Under the pieces are notes generated by a model. That model was not told the DNA's origin. It searched no databases and saw only the letters and a list, made by a program, of their open reading frames with translations. From NCBI RefSeq assembly GCF_002368395.1, contig NZ_AP018254.1, forward strand, positions 4,836,001 to 4,900,000: 64,000 bases of DNA, written 5' to 3'. The position numbers were made by a program, and so were the translations under genes. The DNA is from Calothrix sp. NIES-3974 (GTDB lineage Bacteria > Cyanobacteriota > Cyanobacteriia > Cyanobacteriales > Nostocaceae). Position 1 is the first letter of the stretch; the number at the start of each line of letters is the position of its first letter. Of this stretch, positions 38,155 to 50,467 are shown one piece after another.

Positions 38155-39357
38155 ATGATCCATCCAGACTTGATGGTATCAAATAATTTAATAGAGGAGT
38201 TTAAAGTCTGTACCCGGCTACAGTACAGTGGCAAACTGGATATTAGAACTGCTAAAGGCGATAGATGGGCTTTTTATTACCGATTGGGTAGAATTGTCTG
38301 GGCTACTGGTGGAAAGCACCCCTTTCGACGATGGCGCAGAAATATGGCACAATTTTGTCCAGATATTGACGTGGAAAAAATCCAGTTACAACCCTCCGAT
38401 GCGGAAATTGACTATTGGGATTATCGATTGCTGGAAACATTGCATGATCGGCAAAAGGTTCGTCGCGAACAAATTAACTCAATTGTCGAGAGTACAATTA
38501 CTGAACTATTATTTGACCTAGCCCAAAGCACTAACTTTAATCCCATCACCTGCGATCGCAATCAAGATGTTATCCTCGAAACTCCGATGAGTTTCACCAG
38601 CGCGGATATGTCGCTGAAGTATATGCAGGATACTTGGAAAAACTGGTCAGAAGCAGGTTTAGCTAATTTTTTGCCTGACTCAGCACCAATTTTACGCCGT
38701 CCTGAACAACTTCAACAGCAAGTTAGTCCAGCTGTATATAAAAATTTCGTTGTTTTGATGAATGGGAAATATACCCTGCGGGATTTAGCTTTTCGGATGA
38801 AGCAGGGTATTCTACCCGTTACCCGTTCCTTGCTTCCCTATATCCTCAAGGGAATTATTGAACTGATTGAAGTTCCGGATATTCCTTTACGTATTAGTGA
38901 AGTCAAGAAAAACTCAGCCACACCTATCAAATCCACTCCATCAGGTCCCTTGATTGCTTGTGTTGATGATAGTCCCCAAGTGACCCAAATGCTAGAGCAA
39001 ATTCTTGCTCCTAACGGGTTTCGATTCATCAAAATTCAAGACCCCCTACAGGCTTTACCCATTCTCATTGAACATAAGCCTGATTTAATTTTCCTTGATT
39101 TAGTCATGCCCGTTGCCAGTGGTTACGAAATTTGCGCCCAGTTGCGTCGAGTTTCCGTATTTACCCATACACCAATCATTATTTTAACTGGTAGCGATGG
39201 TCTGTTAGACCGAGTGAGGGCTAAAGTAGTTGGTTCAACTGATTTTATTAGCAAACCAGTTGCTGCGGATAAGGTCATGGGGGTAGTTCGTAAGTATATT
39301 ACTGTACCTGCATCTGGCTTAAATCGTACTAACCAACAAGCAACTGCAATGGGATGA
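38155..39357 (+). CDS. pixG: PATAN-REC response regulator (PixG-type)
   Basis: 400 residues. The N-terminal PATAN/DUF4388 domain (about 1-245, with QYSGKLDIRTAKGDRWAFYYRLGRIVWATGG) is followed by a receiver domain (about 268-390). Its phosphoacceptor is Asp315 in IFLDLVMPVASGYE, with an acidic pair in CVDDSPQ and Lys in DFISKPV. PATAN-REC proteins (PixG, PatA, HmpA) set type IV pilus behaviour downstream of CheA-like kinases. First gene of the operon; ATG preceded by GAGGA. Confidence 0.87.
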   Translation: MIHPDLMVSNNLIEEFKVCTRLQYSGKLDIRTAKGDRWAFYYRLGRIVWATGGKHPFRRWRRNMAQFCPDIDVEKIQLQPSDAEIDYWDYRLLETLHDRQKVRREQINSIVESTITELLFDLAQSTNFNPITCDRNQDVILETPMSFTSADMSLKYMQDTWKNWSEAGLANFLPDSAPILRRPEQLQQQVSPAVYKNFVVLMNGKYTLRDLAFRMKQGILPVTRSLLPYILKGIIELIEVPDIPLRISEVKKNSATPIKSTPSGPLIACVDDSPQVTQMLEQILAPNGFRFIKIQDPLQALPILIEHKPDLIFLDLVMPVASGYEICAQLRRVSVFTHTPIIILTGSDGLLDRVRAKVVGSTDFISKPVAADKVMGVVRKYITVPASGLNRTNQQATAMG

Positions 39358-39530
39358 AATCATAATTTTATTCATAAAGTTAGTAAATTTTTTATTGAGT
39401 ATCCAAGTATTTTCACTGAGCCTATTCTCGATTGAATGCATCAAAATGAGATAAACAGAATTTTGTTTGCATGGATGGAACAGGTTAATGAAGTTTGATT
39501 TAATTTTGCAGAATTAAAAAGGTGATTCCT

Positions 39531-39893
39531 ATGAGTACTGTATTAGTTGTTGAAGACGGCTTAACAGATATGGAAATTCTCTGTCGTTATTTACAACAAG
39601 CAGGACATTCTGTCATTAGTGCTAAAAGTAGTGAAGAAGCACAGGAGCAGTTAGTTCAAAAAACACCGGATTTAATTTTTTTGGATGTGATTTTACCTGG
39701 TAAAAGTGGCTATGAGATTTGTCGAGAACTCAAAAATAATCCCAGTACCAGTAATATTCCGATAATTTTTTGTTCCACAAAAAATAGTGATGTGGATAAA
39801 ATGTGGGGAACAATGCTAGGTGCTGATGGCTACATATCTAAACCAATTGACCCAGAGGAGTTAGCGGGTACTTTGAAGCAATTAATTAAGTAG
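39531..39893 (+). CDS. pixH: CheY-like response regulator (PixH-type)
   Basis: 120 residues, a single receiver domain. Asp52 in IFLDVILPGKSGYE is the phosphoacceptor; VVEDG provides the acidic site and ISKPID the conserved Lys. ATG at 39531 with AAGGTG upstream; a GTG at 39522 is possible. It sits 173 bases after pixG. The stop codon directly abuts a family palindrome (39894-39913). Confidence 0.88.
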   Translation: MSTVLVVEDGLTDMEILCRYLQQAGHSVISAKSSEEAQEQLVQKTPDLIFLDVILPGKSGYEICRELKNNPSTSNIPIIFCSTKNSDVDKMWGTMLGADGYISKPIDPEELAGTLKQLIK

Positions 39894-40144: not shown

Positions 40145-40645
40145 TTGTGTTATTGTTGTGAAATTACAGTGATAGAAACAGAAGAGAAAGTTTTGAGCTT
40201 TTGCCTGGGAAATCAAGATACAGCAGTGATACCTTTAGCTAATATTACTGAAGTTTTTCAAGTTTCCTTAAATGATGTATGTGGCGTTCCCGAAATGCCC
40301 AACTGTATCCAAGGGATTTATAATTGGCGGGGGGAGATGTTATGGTTAATTGATTTGGAGTTGATGTTGGGTTATGCTTCCCTGAGTTATAGAAGCAATA
40401 TCACTGCAAAAATGATGGTCATAGTGATTCAATATGAGGGTAAATATTTAGGCCTATTAGTGCGTCAGTTAATGGATATTGAACGGCTGAACTCTGGTGC
40501 AATTAAACTAGCTAACTCCCAGTTATTTCCCCATGAGGTGCTGCCATTTCTGCGAGGATATTTTATTAATGAGTCGGAGAAAATGATTATTGCCATTAAT
40601 CCTGAATCTATTTTTAATGCCCCATATTGGCAAATTCATAATTGA
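40145..40645 (+). CDS. pixI: CheW-like adaptor (PixI-type)
   Basis: 166 residues from a TTG start, or about 158 from the GTG at 40169; neither has a clear ribosome binding site, so the start is uncertain. One CheW domain: IPLANITEVFQ, MPNCIQGIYNWRGEMLWLIDLELMLG, VIQYEGKYLGLLVRQLMDIERL. It should link the receptor to the CheA kinase. It lies between pixH and the receptor gene. Confidence 0.86.
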   Translation: MCYCCEITVIETEEKVLSFCLGNQDTAVIPLANITEVFQVSLNDVCGVPEMPNCIQGIYNWRGEMLWLIDLELMLGYASLSYRSNITAKMMVIVIQYEGKYLGLLVRQLMDIERLNSGAIKLANSQLFPHEVLPFLRGYFINESEKMIIAINPESIFNAPYWQIHN

Positions 40646-41131: not shown

Positions 41132-44100
41132 ATGACGAGCATTTATGAAAATAATAATGGATTTACAGTCGAAAGTATTGAAAGCGGAATGGTGGAAAAT
41201 AAACCTGTGGAGACTTCTTTAGCAGCGACTTTAATAGAACAAGGTGTAGAGAGTGAAGTTAATCAAAGGTTTTTAAAAACTTGGCGGAAGCTGTTTGCTA
41301 GCATCAAGACAGAAATGGGACGCTCCCGTGACCGAGAAACCTTACTAACTACTACAGTTAAGCAAATACATGAAAAAATAGCCAGCGATCGCACTCTGGT
41401 TTACCGGTTTGTGAATTCAGAAACGGGTGTAATTGCAAGTGAATATCTGAACCGGGGGTGGACTCCAGCAATGGGGGAAAATTTACCAGCAATTGTATTT
41501 GGTGGTTTTCAAAGTTGCGATTATCAAGATGCGATCGCTATCAACCAAATTGCAGAAATTGATGCGACTCCCTACCAAAGACAGTTATTAGAGAAATTCC
41601 AAGTTCAGTCCAGTTTAGCAGTTCCCGTTTATTTGCAAGGACAAACTTGGGGATTGCTAGTGGTTCATCAGTGTCAAAAAACACGGGTTTGGAGTGAATC
41701 GGAAATTTCCCTACTAACACTAGTTGCAGATGAACTCGGTGATTGCTTGCAAATCCTGGAACTTCACCAACAACAGCAATTACAAGCACAGGAATATAAA
41801 TCCTTGACAAAAGTCATTGATAAAATTCAACGTGCATCTAGTTTAGAGCAAATTTTGCAAACAACAACCCAAGCAGCAAGACAATTAATTAACTGCGATC
41901 GCGTTTCGGTTTATCAATTTCATCCCGACTGGAGTGGTGAATATGTCTGTGAATCGGTTGCTCCTGGTTGGACTCCTTTGGTGGGTGGGGGAATTAAAAC
42001 AGTCTGGGAAGACACCTACCTCCAGGAAACCCAGGGAGGACGTTACCGTCACCACGAAAGCATGATTGTCCATGACATCTATACAATGGGTTTTTCACCC
42101 TGTCATGTTGATTTGTTGGAACAATTTCAAGTCCGTGCTTACATCACAGTTCCCGTCTTTTCGGGTCAAAAGCTCTGGGGAATATTAGCAGGTTATCAAA
42201 ACTCGGAAACTCGCACCTGGAAAGAGTCGGAAATTGAGTTATTTAAACACTTTGCTAGCAGTTTAGGGGTTGCGGTATCCCAACAGGAATCCCTGCAACA
42301 AATGCAAATTCAAGCTCAACAGCAAGCTAAAATTGCTACCCAGGAAAAAGCGATCGCGAAATTAATTTCTCGAATTCGCCAATCTGTAGATATTAAAGAT
42401 ATCCTTACTGCTACCACCCAGGAAATTCGCCAACTACTCAGTACCCAACGGGTGGGTGTGTATCGATTTAATCCCGATTGGAGTGGGGATTTTGTGGCCG
42501 AATCTGCTGCTCCAGGTTTAGTTCCCCTGATGGACAAGGGATTAGAAAAGGAGGTTTTGCAAGAAAACGGTCACTGTCAAACCCTGCAAGGACTAGCGAC
42601 AATTTATAAATCCCACGATAATTATCTGCAAAATACCCAGGGAGGTCGCTACCAGCAAAAAACAGCCTTTGTGGTCAATGATGTGGAAAAAGCAGGTTTT
42701 CCAGACTGTTACATGCACTTGCTAGAGCAGTTAGAAGCCAAAGCTTACATGACCGCTCCCATTTTTAATGGTGAAAAACTCTGGGGACTCCTAACAGTTT
42801 ACCATAGTGAAGGAGCCAGGGATTGGCAAGAATCGGAAATTAACCTGATCAAACAAGTAGCTGTACAATTTGGCACAGCCATTTCCCAAGCCGAATATAT
42901 TCAACAAACCCAAGCACAAGCGGAAAAACTGGCCAACACAGCCAAACGTCAACAGGATTTAATCGCCCTCACCCGTAAAATTGGTGAAGCCCTAGTTGAA
43001 AAAGTGACAAATACTTCCCAACTAGAAGCCATTCTCCAGACAACAGTAGCAGAAGTCCGACGACTCCTACAAACCGACCGAACAGTTATATATCGGTTTA
43101 ATCCCGACTGGAGTGGTGATTTTATCGCTGAATCCGTAGCACCTGGTTGGCTACCCTTCCAGGAAAAACTGCAAAACCAACAAATTAACCAGGATTTACT
43201 CAAAGAAAACGGTCACTGCGATAGCATCCGCAGTTTAACTTCCATCTACAAACAGAAAGATTCCTACCTTCAAGAGAATCAAGGTGGTCGTTACCAGCAA
43301 AAAACCACCTTCGTCGTTAACGATGTTACTCAGGAAAACTTCCCCGCTTGTTACACCGAATTACTCGACCAATTTGAAGCCAAAGCCTATTTAACCGTTC
43401 CCATTTTCAAAGGGGATCAACTTTGGGGACTGCTTGCAAGTTACCAACATGACCGCACCCGTGAATGGCAAGAAGCAGAAATCAACATCATGCAGCAGAT
43501 TGCCGTATTAGTCGCAGTCGCAATACAACAAGCTCAAAGTTTCGAGAAATTAGAACAACAATCTCAACAAGCAACTAAAGCCGCAGAAATTGATCAAGCT
43601 GTGGGTAAAGTCATTGATAAAATCCGTAAATCCTCGGATATTGACTCAATTTTTCATACTACCACCAAGGAAGTTCGTAATTTACTTCAAGCTGACCGGG
43701 TAGTAGTGTTCAAATTCAATCCTGACTGGAGTGGTAATTTTGTCGCTGAGTCGGTGGGAGCAAATTGGGTACGATTAGTAGATGGTAATCACCAAACCTA
43801 TTGGGCTGATAGTTATTTACAAGAAACCCAAGGAGGACGCTACCGCAACCGTGAATACTTTGTTGCCAATGATATGTATACAGCAGGACACGCGGAATGT
43901 CACTTAGAAATTTTAGAACAATACCAAGCTCGTGCCTACGTAATTGTACCTATTTTTCAAGGTGAAAATCTCTGGGGACTATTGGCTGCTTACCAGAATT
44001 CGGGGACACGGGAATGGCAGCAATTAGAAATTAACCTACTGATGCGAATTGGTGATCAGTTTGGTGTCGCACTACAACAGGTAGAGTATTTGCAACAACT

Positions 44101-45775
44101 GGAACGAAAAACCCAGGAAGTGCAAAGAGTAGCCGAACGCGATCGCGCTGCAACTAAAGTCATTGATAAAATCCGTCAGTCCATTGATATTAACGAGATT
44201 TTCTCCATCACCACCAAAGAGGTACGGGGATTATTAAATACAGACCGGGTAGCCATTTACCGTTTTAATCCCGATTGGGGTGGTGTCTTTGTTGCTGAAT
44301 CCGTAGCTCCCGGTTGGGTATCGCTGGTGGAAAAACAAAATCAAATACCCCAATTACAGGAAAATATCAGTAATTGCCTTGGCGCAGGTGGTTTACTGAC
44401 GGCAAGCGATAAAGCCCAAGGGAAACAAGTTAAAGACACCTACCTACAAGCCACCCAAGCTCAAGAACTGCGCGATCGCACTGCGTTTGTCCGTAGTGAT
44501 ATCCACAATTCCGGGTTTTCCCAGTGCTACGTGGATGTTCTCGATGAATACCAAGCCAAAGCCTACGCGATTGTACCGATTTTCCAGGGCGAAAAACTCT
44601 GGGGAATGCTTGCAGCCTTTGAAAATAAAGGTACAAGGGAATGGGCAGAATTGGAAGTATCTTTACTTACCCGTATTGCCAACCAGCTAGGGACAACCCT
44701 ACAACAAACTGAGTACCTGGAAACCCTCAAACAGCAATCAGCCCAATTAAAGGCAGCCGCAGAGCGGGAAAAACAAAACACTGAACAATTCCAAAAGCAA
44801 GCAATGCAACTGTTAGCGGCCGTACGTCCGGCTCTCGATGGGGATTTAACGGTGCGCGCTCCCATTACGGAAGATGTTCTCGGTACAATTGCGGATGCCT
44901 ATAACAATACCCTGCAAGCATTGCGACAAATTGTCAGTCAGGTATTAGGAGCAGCTGAACAGGTGGCAGCTAGATCGAATGAAAGTAACGCTTCCCTAGG
45001 TAGTTTAACAGGTTTAGCCCGTCAACAATCCAAAGAAATCAACGAAGCCTTGATGGAAATTCAACAAATGGTTGATTCCACCCAAGCCGTGGTTGACAAT
45101 GCGGAAATAGTGCAAACCACCGTCAAACAAGCAAGCCAAACCGTGGAAAAAGGCGATGCAGCCATGAACAAAACCGTGGAAGCGATTCAAGCCATCCGCG
45201 AAACCGTTGCTCAAACCAGTAAAAAAATCAAACGTCTAAGTGAATCATCCCAGAAAATTTCCAAAGTCGTCAACCTGATTAGTAACTTTGCTACTCAAAC
45301 AAACGTACTAGCACTCAACGCCGCCATTGAAGCCACCCGCGCAGGGGAGTACGGGAAAGGATTTGCAGTAGTTGCGGATGAAGTGCGTTCTCTGTCTCGT
45401 CAATCAGCCGCAGCAACCATCGAAATTGAGAAATTAGTCCAGGAAATTCAGGAAGAGACAGGGGAAGTTGCAGTGGCCATGGAAACAGGTATTCAGCAGG
45501 TAGTAGAGGGAACAAATCTAGTCAGTGAAACCCGTCAAAGCTTGAATGAAATTGTTACAGCCACCGAGGAAATTAGCGAGCTACTAAATAAAATTACGGA
45601 GGCGACCCAAGGACAAATGATGCAATCAGTATCCGTAACTGCATCGATGAAAGATGTTGCGCAAATTGCGAACAAAACCTCATCGGAAACCAATAATATT
45701 GCGGTTGTCTTCCAACAATTATCAGAAATGGCAGAGGAGTTGTTAAACAGTATGAGCAAGTTTAAAGTCAACTGA
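41132..45775 (+). CDS. pixJ: Six-GAF methyl-accepting photoreceptor (PixJ/PtxD-like)
   Basis: 1547 residues, no membrane span visible, so probably soluble. Six GAF domains (about 68-210, 238-383, 423-586, 630-800, 837-986, 1017-1193), HAMP (about 1228-1277), then an MCP signalling domain with tip [18 protein letters not shown] near 1402. Canonical bilin Cys: 324 (PCH), 526 (DCY), 740 (ACY), 923 (ECH), 1132 (QCY). GAF1 has Tyr there and probably binds no bilin. GAF2 and GAF5 also have a WxD pair (W292/D294, W891/D893), as in red/green cyanobacteriochromes. GAF3, 4 and 6 have an extra Cys (482, 696, 1082) in an inserted loop, as in insert-Cys violet/blue sensors. ATG start. Confidence 0.9.
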
Positions 45776-46756: not shown

Positions 46757-49700
46757 ATGATTACCGATTCTTCTATTCGCGAACAAGGTTATATTTACTT
46801 TCTGGAAGAAGCTCCGGAATTATTACAAACAATTGAAGCGGATTTATTTTCCTTAGCAGGGGATTTTAGTACTGCGAAGGTTCACAATTTGATGCGTGCT
46901 ACCCATACAATTAAAGGGGGTGCAGCAAATGTGGGTTTGGAGGTAATTAATAAAATTGCCCACTCCTTAGAAGATATTTTTAAAGCATTATATAATCCGG
47001 ATGTGGAATTAGATGGGGAGTTGCAAACCCTGTTATTTCAAGCTTTTGAGTGTTTGCAATTACCTGTGACTGCGGAAATTAGTGGTACTAGTATTGATGC
47101 TGATGAAATTTTACAACGTGCAGCTGGTGTTTTTGCCCAATTGCAAGAAAAATTAGGTGATGCTTTTGGTGCAGATACCTATATCCCGACTTCTGAGGAG
47201 TTGGGGTTTGATATTGTCCTGTCAATTTTTGAAACTGGTGTTTCCCAACGAATTGATAGTATTGCGGAGATTCTCGAAAATCCACCGGGAAATGACGAAT
47301 TGGTAGATTTTTTACAGACCCAAGGGGAAGTGTTTTTGGGTTTGGCGGAGTCATTAAATTTACCAGGTTTTGCCGCGATCGCCAAGGCAATGGTTGATGC
47401 TTTGTCACGGAATTCCCACCGTGCTGTGGAGGTTGGGAATGCGGTTTTAGCTGATTTGTTAGCAGCACGAGCTGCCGTTCAGGGGGGGGATCGAGTTCGG
47501 GGGGGAGAGGTTTCTCCGCGATTATTAGAGTTAGCCCAGGGAGTTGATTCTTCAGGTTCGGATGTAGATAGTTTACCCTTGAGTGCAACGACAGTAATTA
47601 ATACTGATTATCATCAAAATCAAGATAATCAAGATATTAATATTGCTACTGGGGAACAGGAGTTAATTGCACCCAGGCAAAATTCCTTACGGGATGAGAT
47701 TGAAGCATTTTATCGATTTTTAACTCAAGGTAATCACAAAAATTACAAACCAATTAAGCCGACATCAGCGAAGTTTTATTTAAAGGTAATTCGTTATATT
47801 TTAGGCTGGTTTAACCATGAATTAGAGATTCCCGAATCCGAATTAAAATTACAATTACTTATCCCCATTCGGGGAATAGAATCAACCCTGGATTATCTCG
47901 AAAATTGGTTACGTGAGTTTTTTGTCTTTCTCGATGAGTTTGGTGAGGGAGAGAGTTTACGTCTATATCGTCAAGGTGTTATTTATACTATTATTTTAGC
48001 TCTAGCCCAATTCCTAGATGGGGAACCACAATTAATTAGGGTTTTACAAGAACGTATCCAGACATTAGCAAACGAATATAAAACCTATCCACCCATCACC
48101 AACCAAGAAAAAAACTGGTTAGATTCACCAAAATTACAAGCATTATTAGAAGTGAAAAAATACCCCGCTTCCAGTCATTCTCCATTTTCCAGTAGTGAAA
48201 ACAGAGAAGAAATGATGGAAGCGATTTGGGGGGAAAATCTTCCCGCAAATAGCAATTCTTTTCCAAATAATTTAGTAGAAGATTTAGTTCCAGAAAATCA
48301 ACCAATTGAATCAGATTCCGCTTCCCAGCAAGAAAATACCATCATTGAAAGCACATCCATCCCCCCATCCCCAGCGATTAATCACCCCCACCCAGCAGAT
48401 TCAACCTCGGAGGAAAAACCAACTACTCCCCGTCACCGTTCATTTGTCCGGGTTGATGTGGAAGGTTTACACAAACTCAACTACCTTGCGGGTGAACTAT
48501 TAATTTATCAAAAACGTCGCAGTCTGTTAGATGAACAACTCCATCAAGTCATCGAAAAACTATTTAGCCAACTATCCCGTCATCAAAATACCTTAAACGA
48601 ACTACGGGAAATCCCCCTCCAAGGACAAAGCTTCACCTCCCATCAAACCCGAAATGTGGCATCGGTTAACTTTGATGCTTTGGAAATGGATGAATATACG
48701 GAATACCAACTGACACTACATTCAGCTTTAGAGGAAAGCTTGCAACTACAGGAAACAGCCGAATCCCTAGACCTAATTCTCCGTAACTCGATCCAGGTTC
48801 ACGATAAAAAACAAATCCTCGCCCTTAATATTATTGATAATCTAGTGGAAGCACGGATGTCTCCCCTGGGAAATATTTTAAACCGCTTCCCCCAAATGAT
48901 TCAAAATTTAGCAAATCTGTACAAAAAACAAGTAGAAATGAAACTTGTTGGTACACAGGTATTAGTTGATAAAGCGATCGCAGAAAAACTTTACGACCCA
49001 TTGTTACATATTGTCCGTAACGCTTTTGACCACGGAATTGAAACACCAGAGGAGCGACTTAGCAAGGGGAAACCGGAAACAGGTACAATCGAAATCCGTG
49101 CTTATCACCAGGGAAGTCAAACTATTATCGAAGTTCGTGATGATGGAAAAGGTTTAAACTTCGAGAAAATTCGTCAAAAAGGTTTAGAACTAGGATTACT
49201 TACCAATCCCCAATCCAGCGAAGATGAATTAGTGGATTTATTGTTCTCACCGGGATTTTCCACTGCTGGTAAAGTCACCGATATTTCCGGAAGGGGAATC
49301 GGTTTAGATATTGTCAAAACTCAACTTCGCGCTTTGAACGGGGATATTACCCTCTATTCCCGTCCCCATCAAGGTACTACTTTTATTCTCAAGATACCCT
49401 TTTCTATGACAACAGAACAGTTAATGCTCGTACAAGCAGGAGGTGCGACCTACGCATTACTGCTTGATAGTATCGAAAAAATCCTACTTCCCTCGGTGAC
49501 GCAAATCAGAGAATTGGAAGGAAGGAGGGTTTTATATTGGCAAAATGGAGACGATGAGCAAATAATTGCCATCCGTAATCTCGCAGAATTAATGCACTAC
49601 AATAGCTCCTTTGTTAGTGGTGCAAGTTTAACTCATGGAACCACCACCCTTGATACCCAAGATATCGATAATCCGATTTTGATACTACAAAATGGTTCCG

Positions 49701-50467
49701 AATTACTGGGATTGCAGGTAGATCAAATTATTGGGGAACAGGAACTAGTGATCCGTCCCCTAGGTAATGCGATCGCACCTCCGAAATATATCTATGGGTG
49801 TACTAGTTTAGCCAATGGTAATTTAATTTTGGTGGTGGATGGAGCCTTAATTTTGACCTCCCATCAGATGTATCCACCCTTTGAGACCTATCATCAACCA
49901 GTCCTATCCCCCAGCAAACCAACAGCACTCCCCATTTCTCGTAACGAAACAACTACCGCATATCTGGAATCAGATAATTTAGATAGTTTTGCTGGTATGG
50001 AAGATGCAGGGATAAAACTACCCTCATTACCAGCATCGGAAATTCCCCTGACTGTACCCCGATGGGTATTAGTAGTTGATGATGCAATTAGTTTACGACA
50101 AACAATTTCCCTAACCCTGCAAAAGTATGGGTATCAAGTAATACAAGCAGAAAATGGCATTGAAGCCCTGGAAAAATTACAACACCACCCCGAAATATCC
50201 CTAGTAATTTCCGACCTAGAAATGCCCCGGATGAATGGATTTGAACTACTTTCCCACGTGCGTCAAAACCCCAGCATCAAAGACAAACCCATCGTGATTT
50301 TGACATCCAGGAGTGCGGAAAAACATCGACAACTAGCCTCCGCATTAGGTGCAACCGCTTACCTCACCAAACCCTATTTAGAACACGAATTCCTCGCAAC
50401 AGTAGAAGGTATTTTTCGCGAAAATTCCCCATCTCCCAGTCAAAAATTGCTTGGTTCTGCAACCTAG
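46757..50467 (+). CDS. pixL: CheA-like hybrid histidine kinase (PixL-type)
   Basis: 1236 residues. HPt domain 1-110 with phosphoryl His50 in HTIKGGA. A long variable region (about 110-570) includes a second helical domain and a Pro/Ser-rich linker. CheA dimerisation and ATPase region (about 580-880): VRNAFDHGIETPEERL, VRDDGKGLNFEKIR, ISGRGIGLDIVK. CheW-like domain (about 885-1040), then a receiver (1100-1225) with Asp1153 in ISDLEMPRMNG and Lys in YLTKPY. It should receive light signals from the GAF receptor through PixI and phosphorylate PixG and PixH. ATG start. Confidence 0.9.
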   Translation: MITDSSIREQGYIYFLEEAPELLQTIEADLFSLAGDFSTAKVHNLMRATHTIKGGAANVGLEVINKIAHSLEDIFKALYNPDVELDGELQTLLFQAFECLQLPVTAEISGTSIDADEILQRAAGVFAQLQEKLGDAFGADTYIPTSEELGFDIVLSIFETGVSQRIDSIAEILENPPGNDELVDFLQTQGEVFLGLAESLNLPGFAAIAKAMVDALSRNSHRAVEVGNAVLADLLAARAAVQGGDRVRGGEVSPRLLELAQGVDSSGSDVDSLPLSATTVINTDYHQNQDNQDINIATGEQELIAPRQNSLRDEIEAFYRFLTQGNHKNYKPIKPTSAKFYLKVIRYILGWFNHELEIPESELKLQLLIPIRGIESTLDYLENWLREFFVFLDEFGEGESLRLYRQGVIYTIILALAQFLDGEPQLIRVLQERIQTLANEYKTYPPITNQEKNWLDSPKLQALLEVKKYPASSHSPFSSSENREEMMEAIWGENLPANSNSFPNNLVEDLVPENQPIESDSASQQENTIIESTSIPPSPAINHPHPADSTSEEKPTTPRHRSFVRVDVEGLHKLNYLAGELLIYQKRRSLLDEQLHQVIEKLFSQLSRHQNTLNELREIPLQGQSFTSHQTRNVASVNFDALEMDEYTEYQLTLHSALEESLQLQETAESLDLILRNSIQVHDKKQILALNIIDNLVEARMSPLGNILNRFPQMIQNLANLYKKQVEMKLVGTQVLVDKAIAEKLYDPLLHIVRNAFDHGIETPEERLSKGKPETGTIEIRAYHQGSQTIIEVRDDGKGLNFEKIRQKGLELGLLTNPQSSEDELVDLLFSPGFSTAGKVTDISGRGIGLDIVKTQLRALNGDITLYSRPHQGTTFILKIPFSMTTEQLMLVQAGGATYALLLDSIEKILLPSVTQIRELEGRRVLYWQNGDDEQIIAIRNLAELMHYNSSFVSGASLTHGTTTLDTQDIDNPILILQNGSELLGLQVDQIIGEQELVIRPLGNAIAPPKYIYGCTSLANGNLILVVDGALILTSHQMYPPFETYHQPVLSPSKPTALPISRNETTTAYLESDNLDSFAGMEDAGIKLPSLPASEIPLTVPRWVLVVDDAISLRQTISLTLQKYGYQVIQAENGIEALEKLQHHPEISLVISDLEMPRMNGFELLSHVRQNPSIKDKPIVILTSRSAEKHRQLASALGATAYLTKPYLEHEFLATVEGIFRENSPSPSQKLLGSAT

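Follow-up and report, generated by a model that had tools for sequence, protein, structure and literature searches.

A PixJ-type chemoreceptor of Calothrix sp. NIES-3974 with two predicted classes of bilin-binding GAF domain

To which family of phototaxis receptors does a large chemoreceptor gene of Calothrix sp. NIES-3974 belong, and which colours might its product read? The gene is an open reading frame (ORF) with an ATG start at 41132-45775 of a 64,000-nucleotide stretch of this genome (hereafter the window), on the forward strand, as are all features of the window described below; the host genome is a single contig of 5,985,875 bases. In its product of 1547 residues, Pfam identifies GAF stretches at six places and a single MCPsignal domain (PF00015, E 2.6e-40, residues 1353-1512, 45188-45667), the signalling domain of a methyl-accepting chemotaxis protein (MCP). 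A sequence-only reading of the window had proposed a soluble, multi-colour MCP that senses colour ratios through two classes of bilin-binding GAF, and had compared it with PtxD of Nostoc. Every residue cited there was found in its place on the ORF, and no 19-residue stretch of the receptor has a mean Kyte-Doolittle value of at least 1.6 (highest 1.24), in agreement with a soluble protein. The two GAF classes also withstood scrutiny at the level of sequence; the kinship with PtxD did not. We consider it likely that the gene belongs to a pix/tax1-like cluster for phototaxis and encodes its PixJ-type receptor, with the whole light mechanism proposed below. Gene order, orthology, the six GAF domains, and the cysteine and pocket residues provide the sequence basis, from which we infer the colours and the role in phototaxis.

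Family and GAF classes of the receptor

Orthologous loci were fetched from the family and from the order. The C-terminal part of the receptor was matched in 181 of 217 family genomes at E 1e-110 or better, some matches being paralogues, and 150 PixJ-type loci were fetched from among the matches listed for these 181 genomes; counts over them supersede an earlier count over 70 hand-picked loci. One locus from another family within the order (L052, 69.9%) belongs to a set of 71 loci and lies outside the 70- and 150-locus sets. An MCP tree built from 29 chosen loci united 19 PixJ-type rows in one clade (support 100/99), which holds the MCP domain of the window, and four PtxD rows in a separate clade (100/100), which does not. 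The gene order PATAN-REC, CheY, CheW, MCP, CheA is present in the window and is kept in 13 of 14 in-family loci, the remaining one (L051) ending at a contig end. AnPixJ and NpR6012 are known for their red/green GAFs. AnPixJg2 was placed among PixJ-type GAF2 domains in the GAF tree described below, the NpR6012g4 sequence in the PDB shares 95% identity with GAF4 of a PixJ-type locus (L103), and GAF5 of the window receptor matched NpR6012g4 (E 6.5e-73) and AnPixJg2 (E 6.9e-72). Together, the MCP clade, the locus order and the placement of NpR6012g4 and AnPixJg2 identify the window gene, as far as sequence can tell, as a PixJ-type receptor, the orthologue type of AnPixJ and NpR6012, and not as PtxD. 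A scan of genome contigs gave two loci only, and a plasmid search by protein yielded a single record in which a match spanned 80% or more of the query, at 32% identity.

The residue patterns support two classes of bilin GAF in this one MCP, a red/green type (GAF2 and GAF5) and an insert-Cys type (GAF3, GAF4 and GAF6). GAF2 (residues 230-387, 41819-42292) and GAF5 (residues 829-986, 43616-44089) carry the WxD tryptophan, at W292 and W891 and nowhere else, together with canonical Cys324-His and Cys923-His and aromatic beta2/alpha4 residues (Y/F and F/Y, respectively). GAF3 (residues 413-589, 42368-42898), GAF4 (residues 623-803, 42998-43540) and GAF6 (residues 1012-1195, 44165-44716) have the canonical cysteine followed by tyrosine, at Cys526, Cys740 and Cys1132, each paired with a second cysteine in a loop insert: Cys482 (codon 42575-42577), Cys696 (43217-43219) and Cys1082 (44375-44377). 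The DxYL motif occurs in all of GAF2 to GAF6, reading DNYL, DSYL and DTYL in GAF3, GAF4 and GAF6, so that the Asp is common to all five and the Trp confined to two, as the sequence-only reading had described. QGGR is found in GAF2 to GAF5, and TQAQELR in GAF6. GAF1 (residues 60-211, 41309-41764) has a tyrosine in the canonical place, again as claimed. Its Cys129, in FQSCDYQD, aligns near the DxYL region; we do not regard it as a bilin cysteine, since the canonical cysteine is missing from all 75 PixJ-type and PtxD-type GAF1 rows (Tyr in 71, His in 4). GAF1 of the genus forms a long branch of its own (0.77) among GAF1 domains.

A tree of 148 GAFs from the 29 loci and three PDB sequences, built by a quick method with loop columns removed and SH-aLRT support alone, placed GAF2 in the GAF2 group that includes AnPixJg2 (support 96). 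GAF3 and GAF4 fell in one insert group, type A (96), and GAF6 belonged to a second, type B, with support of 87 for the whole group. GAF5 grouped with a red/green GAF of L053 and L063, where it stands between types A and B (91, on a branch that is not starred), and GAF2 and GAF3 of PtxD formed groups of their own. GAF3 is the deepest branch of type A, and its origin as a recent copy of GAF4 was rejected on that ground. The typical type A loop reads [14 protein letters not shown] and the typical type B loop RLQESISxCxxMRSLF.

Across the 150 family PixJ-type loci (649 long GAF hits), a cysteine was present in 53 of 53 loops longer than 20 residues and in none of 443 short-loop GAFs with the canonical cysteine, a pattern that exceeds chance; five long-loop rows from two order-level loci of other families (L036 and L038) run counter to it in having no loop cysteine. 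The first 71 PixJ-type loci hold 43 long-loop GAFs, in 23 loci, and all 43 have CY. Their DxY region reads DxY in 37, DxH in three, DxE and ExY in one each, with a gap in one, and the residue at +4 after the loop cysteine is Arg in 27 and Lys in one. In PtxD-type long-loop GAFs, Arg or Lys stands at +3 in 12 of 12. A literature search, made mostly through listings, turned up no insert-Cys GAF in PixJ; we make no claim that the combination is unpublished. A second cysteine of another kind was also seen: GAFs with DPCL and CY, placing a cysteine at the DXCF position, occur in L040 (GAF6) and L077 (GAF7), with similar ones in L074-L080 and L083-L088. Those of L040 and L077, the two included in the GAF tree, are nested among red/green GAFs (forks 83-93) and apart from the DXCF group, and the second cysteine probably arose separately there, within the red/green line.

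AlphaFold2 models of GAF4 and GAF6 (mean pLDDT 77.8 and 77.3), built on alignments that included red/green GAFs, have as their nearest solved structures AnPixJg2 and GAF3 of Slr1393 for GAF4, and AnPixJg2 for GAF6. As modelled, both adopt the fold of a cyanobacteriochrome (CBCR) GAF. The genome holds three bilin reductases by NCBIfam, pcyA, pebB and pebA (named phycocyanobilin (PCB):ferredoxin oxidoreductase, phycoerythrobilin (PEB):ferredoxin oxidoreductase and 15,16-dihydrobiliverdin:ferredoxin oxidoreductase); given pcyA, the strain can probably make phycocyanobilin. The pebB- and pebA-like genes lie side by side (G000:C1:3015145-3017001), and the strain probably makes phycoerythrobilin too.

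Predicted colours and signalling

The residues that tune colour in insert-Cys GAFs have been located on beta2 (position III) and alpha4 (position X) (PMC5240096). UG1 (F684/Y777) and UG2 (Y537/L622) are both near-ultraviolet (near-UV)/green sensors, at 384/560 nm and 381/556 nm; when Phe at position III of UG1 was exchanged for Val and position X was altered as well, the photoproducts lay at 583-591 nm instead of 560 nm, and the UG1 Y777F variant had a dark state at 398 nm (PMC5240096). The corresponding pairs in the window are F/L in GAF3, F/F in GAF4 and F/Y in GAF6, the last being that of UG1 and the second that of UG1 Y777F. To place the two columns, F634 and F695 of NpR6012g4 served as what we take to be their markers. 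From the DxYL aspartate to position X there are 38 residues in GAF3, GAF4, GAF6 and UG1 and 39 in UG2, the last two by published numbering. The distances from beta2 to the loop cysteine and from there to the aspartate are 28/14 in GAF3, 32/14 in GAF4 and 29/20 in GAF6; elsewhere they are 32/14 in PtxD-type GAF3 and 29/22 in PtxD-type GAF2. By published residues they come to 32/14 in UG2 (Y537, C569, D583), equal to GAF4 of the window, and 29/26 in UG1 (PMC5240096). From these pairs and spacings, we predict a near-UV or violet dark state with a green photoproduct for GAF3, GAF4 and GAF6, a comparison that draws on few characterised proteins. The violet/blue response proposed in the sequence-only reading is not the prediction we prefer, the three pairs being nearer to UG1 (F/Y) and UG2 (Y/L) than to the violet/orange sensor.

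We propose that GAF2 to GAF6 would each attach phycocyanobilin through the canonical cysteine, with GAF1 serving as a non-binding structural domain. GAF2 and GAF5 would switch between red and green. In GAF3, GAF4 and GAF6, a second, light-labile thioether from the loop cysteine to C10 would give the near-UV or violet dark state and a photoproduct that is green and not orange. The combined photostate of the linked GAFs may then be passed to the MCP tip and set the activity of the hybrid CheA, which would phosphorylate the CheY and PATAN-REC regulators, and these would act on type IV pili. Over evolution, the number and order of the GAFs may change through in-frame gain and loss of GAF-plus-linker units. 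With insert-Cys GAFs on a PixJ-type gene, the receptor may read near-UV or violet light as well, and both this combination and the variable GAF number should be of use to specialists.

Alternative readings

An obvious alternative is that the gene is the strain's own PtxD orthologue, cut from seven GAFs to six. The broad plan is alike, with a non-binding GAF1, insert-Cys and red/green GAFs, an MCP domain and che neighbours, and PtxD-type loci likewise combine two insert-Cys GAFs (GAF2 and GAF3) with red/green ones. Six stretches of 1745-1748 residues with seven GAFs were labelled PtxD-type: their sixth GAF ends at 1203-1206, compared with the NpF2164g6 construct at 1052-1206 (PMC12856669), and their GAF3 insert cysteine lies at 546-549, compared with C546 of NpF2164g3 (PMC5240096). 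The C-terminal identity of the window receptor is 55-56% to these and 69-84% to the PixJ-type loci other than L031, its insert GAFs are separate from GAF2 and GAF3 of PtxD in the GAF tree, and the PATAN-REC protein of the window is matched over 122-147 residues only, never at full length, in the six PtxD-type stretches (10.5 kb each). PtxD orthologues, matching the C-terminal query at no less than 86% identity, are present in 33 of the 217 family genomes and in neither of the two of this genus, and seven further family genomes have a PtxD C-terminal match at 58-59% only. A direct search of both genomes of the genus found no PtxD orthologue in that of the window. With six GAFs and an MCP domain in the PixJ-type clade, apart from the PtxD rows, we rejected PtxD orthology; a shortened PtxD is scarcely credible. 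The comparison with PixJ, PtxD and insert-Cys GAFs that the sequence-only reading had proposed therefore bore out PixJ and, by MCP tree and locus order, dismissed PtxD as comparator, and its contrast of six GAFs with the seven of PtxD had been drawn between paralogues, the relevant relatives being of AnPixJ/NpR6012 type.

Granted a PixJ-type receptor, its insert-Cys GAFs could be degenerate, if not all three then at least GAF6 and perhaps also GAF3, holding bilin on one cysteine or none and leaving a plain red/green sensor. In GAF6 the GG of xGGEL is lost, GAF3 and GAF6 no longer have the arginine at +4, GAF3 sits on a long branch in the GAF tree, and the canonical cysteine has been replaced in other, otherwise bilin-type orthologue GAFs (Phe in L068 GAF2, Ser in L101 GAF2, Ala in L039 GAF5). 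Type B GAFs mostly have xGGEL or something near it at the TQGGRY place, with AQEL in the window, AREL in L031 and further divergence in L057 and L060-L062. Within this set, the change of GG to AQ or AR is the sole genus-specific part by sequence, RY to EL being usual in the subgroup; the substitution noted in the sequence-only reading is thus real, its EL part is not peculiar to this receptor, and we rejected EL as a mark of lost function. Departure from QGGRY is also seen in PtxD-type GAF2, which probably binds bilin (QGKNF in five of six rows, QGKTF in one); two PtxD domains are reported to carry bilin on a second cysteine (PMC5812497), presumably GAF2 and GAF3. Both cysteines, DxYL and the beta2 phenylalanine are retained in all three insert-Cys GAFs of the window, and likewise in L031 at identities of 96% (GAF3), 90% (GAF4) and 95% (GAF6), and we judge degeneracy to be rather improbable. 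Somewhat less remote, though still unlikely, is that functional insert-Cys GAFs are violet/orange or violet/blue sensors. The 32/14 spacing of GAF4 is also that of PtxD-type GAF3, a type represented in N. punctiforme by a violet/orange sensor (PMC5240096). Against this, position III is Phe in GAF3, GAF4 and GAF6 and Val in four of six PtxD-type GAF3 rows, and it was the exchange of that Phe for Val in UG1, with the change at X, that moved the photoproduct from 560 nm to 583-591 nm (PMC5240096).

Several observations weigh against the near-UV or violet/green PixJ-type receptor that we favour. The remaining two PtxD-type GAF3 rows have Phe (L109) and Ile (L112) on beta2, so position III gives no clean colour rule. 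Orthology to AnPixJ and NpR6012 was read through their GAF sequences and not their full genes. The CXXR/K motif named for insert-Cys GAFs is missing, with CDSIR (CXXXR) in GAF4, CQTLQ in GAF3 and CLGAG in GAF6; we did not treat this as excluding because the motif is called poorly conserved in the paper that names it (PMC5240096). GAF6 has no GG in its xGGEL stretch. In the models, the insert loops have pLDDT below 50 (model positions 83-96 in GAF4 and 81-101 in GAF6), and the loop cysteines, at model positions 82 and 79, edge these stretches, so that proximity to the bilin is unsupported. Lastly, the 183-residue difference in L031 described below comes from a metagenome assembly and may be an assembly fault.

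GAF number, locus and related systems

Counting long hits only (those shorter than 120 residues, as in L034, L038, L051, L070 and L099, were dropped), the 150 PixJ-type loci have two GAFs in one, three in 15, four in 94, five in 21, six in 12 and seven in seven. The only two-hit locus, L051, is truncated at the end of its contig, and the three-hit loci L070 and L099 carry extra short hits. With three to seven GAFs across orthologues, L051 aside, six are unremarkable; the PixJ-type gene offers a natural series of three to seven GAFs upon one conserved output. The nearest named relative found, L031, is a contig from the metagenome-assembled genome of an uncultured Calothrix. Its receptor is 94.9% identical to that of the window over 1364 aligned residues and lacks residues 816-998 (43577-44125), an in-frame unit of 183 residues made up of GAF5 and a linker. 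The two DNA matches share 71 bases at the join, an overlap of the kind expected from recombination between similar linkers. The order type A, red/green, type B also occurs in L053 and L063, so loss of GAF5 in L031 is more likely than its gain in the window. The pair, one red/green GAF apart, makes the number of linked sensors per MCP directly testable.

Besides the window, 27 of the 149 remaining PixJ-type loci carry insert-Cys GAFs. In 49 genomes the PixJ has an insert-Cys (28) or DXCF (21) GAF, and PtxD was found in none of them, as against 23 of 101 others (plain Fisher p 5.6e-5); for ten of the 33 genomes with PtxD, the set contains no PixJ locus. Mapped onto the MCP tree, the short-wavelength label switches only four times and the insert label twice, and with so few changes the exclusion is not significant: supported branches gave three (short-wavelength) or six (PtxD) independent pairs, with a sign-test median p of 1. 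We therefore rejected the exclusion as firm evidence, common descent being enough. A spectral division of labour, in which PixJ keeps or gains short-wavelength channels (insert-Cys or DXCF) where PtxD is absent and is red/green only where it is present, is a doubtful proposition; if true, the window would hold a single receptor for a job that Nostoc splits over two. Elsewhere in the genome, at G000:C1:849606-852689, a frame of 1913 residues contains a GAF that shares 49% identity with the insert-Cys GAF3 region of PtxD and is a candidate second multi-GAF bilin sensor of the strain. The sister genome, taken by contig number and coordinates to be that of L031, has a frame of 1054 residues matching GAF4-GAF6 of PtxD at 42% (G001:C135:14727-16958), with no equal counterpart among the window-genome matches listed.

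Genes upstream of the receptor encode a PixG-like response regulator whose N-terminus is PATAN-like (38155-39357), a CheY-like receiver (PixH-like, 39522-39893) and a CheW-like protein (PixI-like, 40145-40645), and downstream is the gene for a hybrid CheA with Hpt, HATPase, CheW and receiver domains (PixL-like, 46757-50467), assigned by Pfam and by orthologues, the first by its Response_reg domain and orthologues at the equivalent place. Ahead of its receiver, the Pfam match to DUF4388 is weak (23.1 bits, cut-off 25), and we infer its PATAN identity from the cluster type. This regulator is 51-74% identical to its counterparts in the in-family loci and 97% to that in L031, where the gene order is identical.

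The tax1/pix cluster of Synechocystis (PixG, H, I, J, L) has the equivalent gene set around a GAF-MCP, including the PATAN domain of PixG (PMC5812497). Our comparison covers this gene set. Synechocystis PixJ1 crosses the membrane twice and has only two GAFs, with a blue/green one among them (PMC5812497), in contrast to the six GAFs and absence of a span-like stretch in the window receptor. AnPixJ (Anabaena/Nostoc PCC 7120) and NpR6012 (N. punctiforme), judged through GAF-matched loci, share the locus type and MCP clade of the window, along with a GAF1 without the cysteine and a red/green GAF2, and are closest to its WxD GAFs through AnPixJg2 and NpR6012g4; the loci nearest to them in our set (L096 and L102-L106) have no insert-Cys GAF, whereas the window receptor has three. 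The insert-Cys CBCRs VO1 (NpF2164g3), UB1 (NpR1597g2), and UG1 and UG2 of Microcoleus B353 have the loop cysteine and the DxYL Asp and Tyr as in the window receptor (PMC5240096), which differs in its C-x-x-x-R in GAF4 and in having no Arg or Lys in GAF3 and GAF6. PtxD (NpF2164, N. punctiforme), a sensor of many colours (PMC5812497), resembles the window receptor in combining GAFs of the insert-Cys and red/green classes on a single MCP, but belongs to another MCP clade and has seven GAFs, its insert GAFs carrying C-x-x-R/K.

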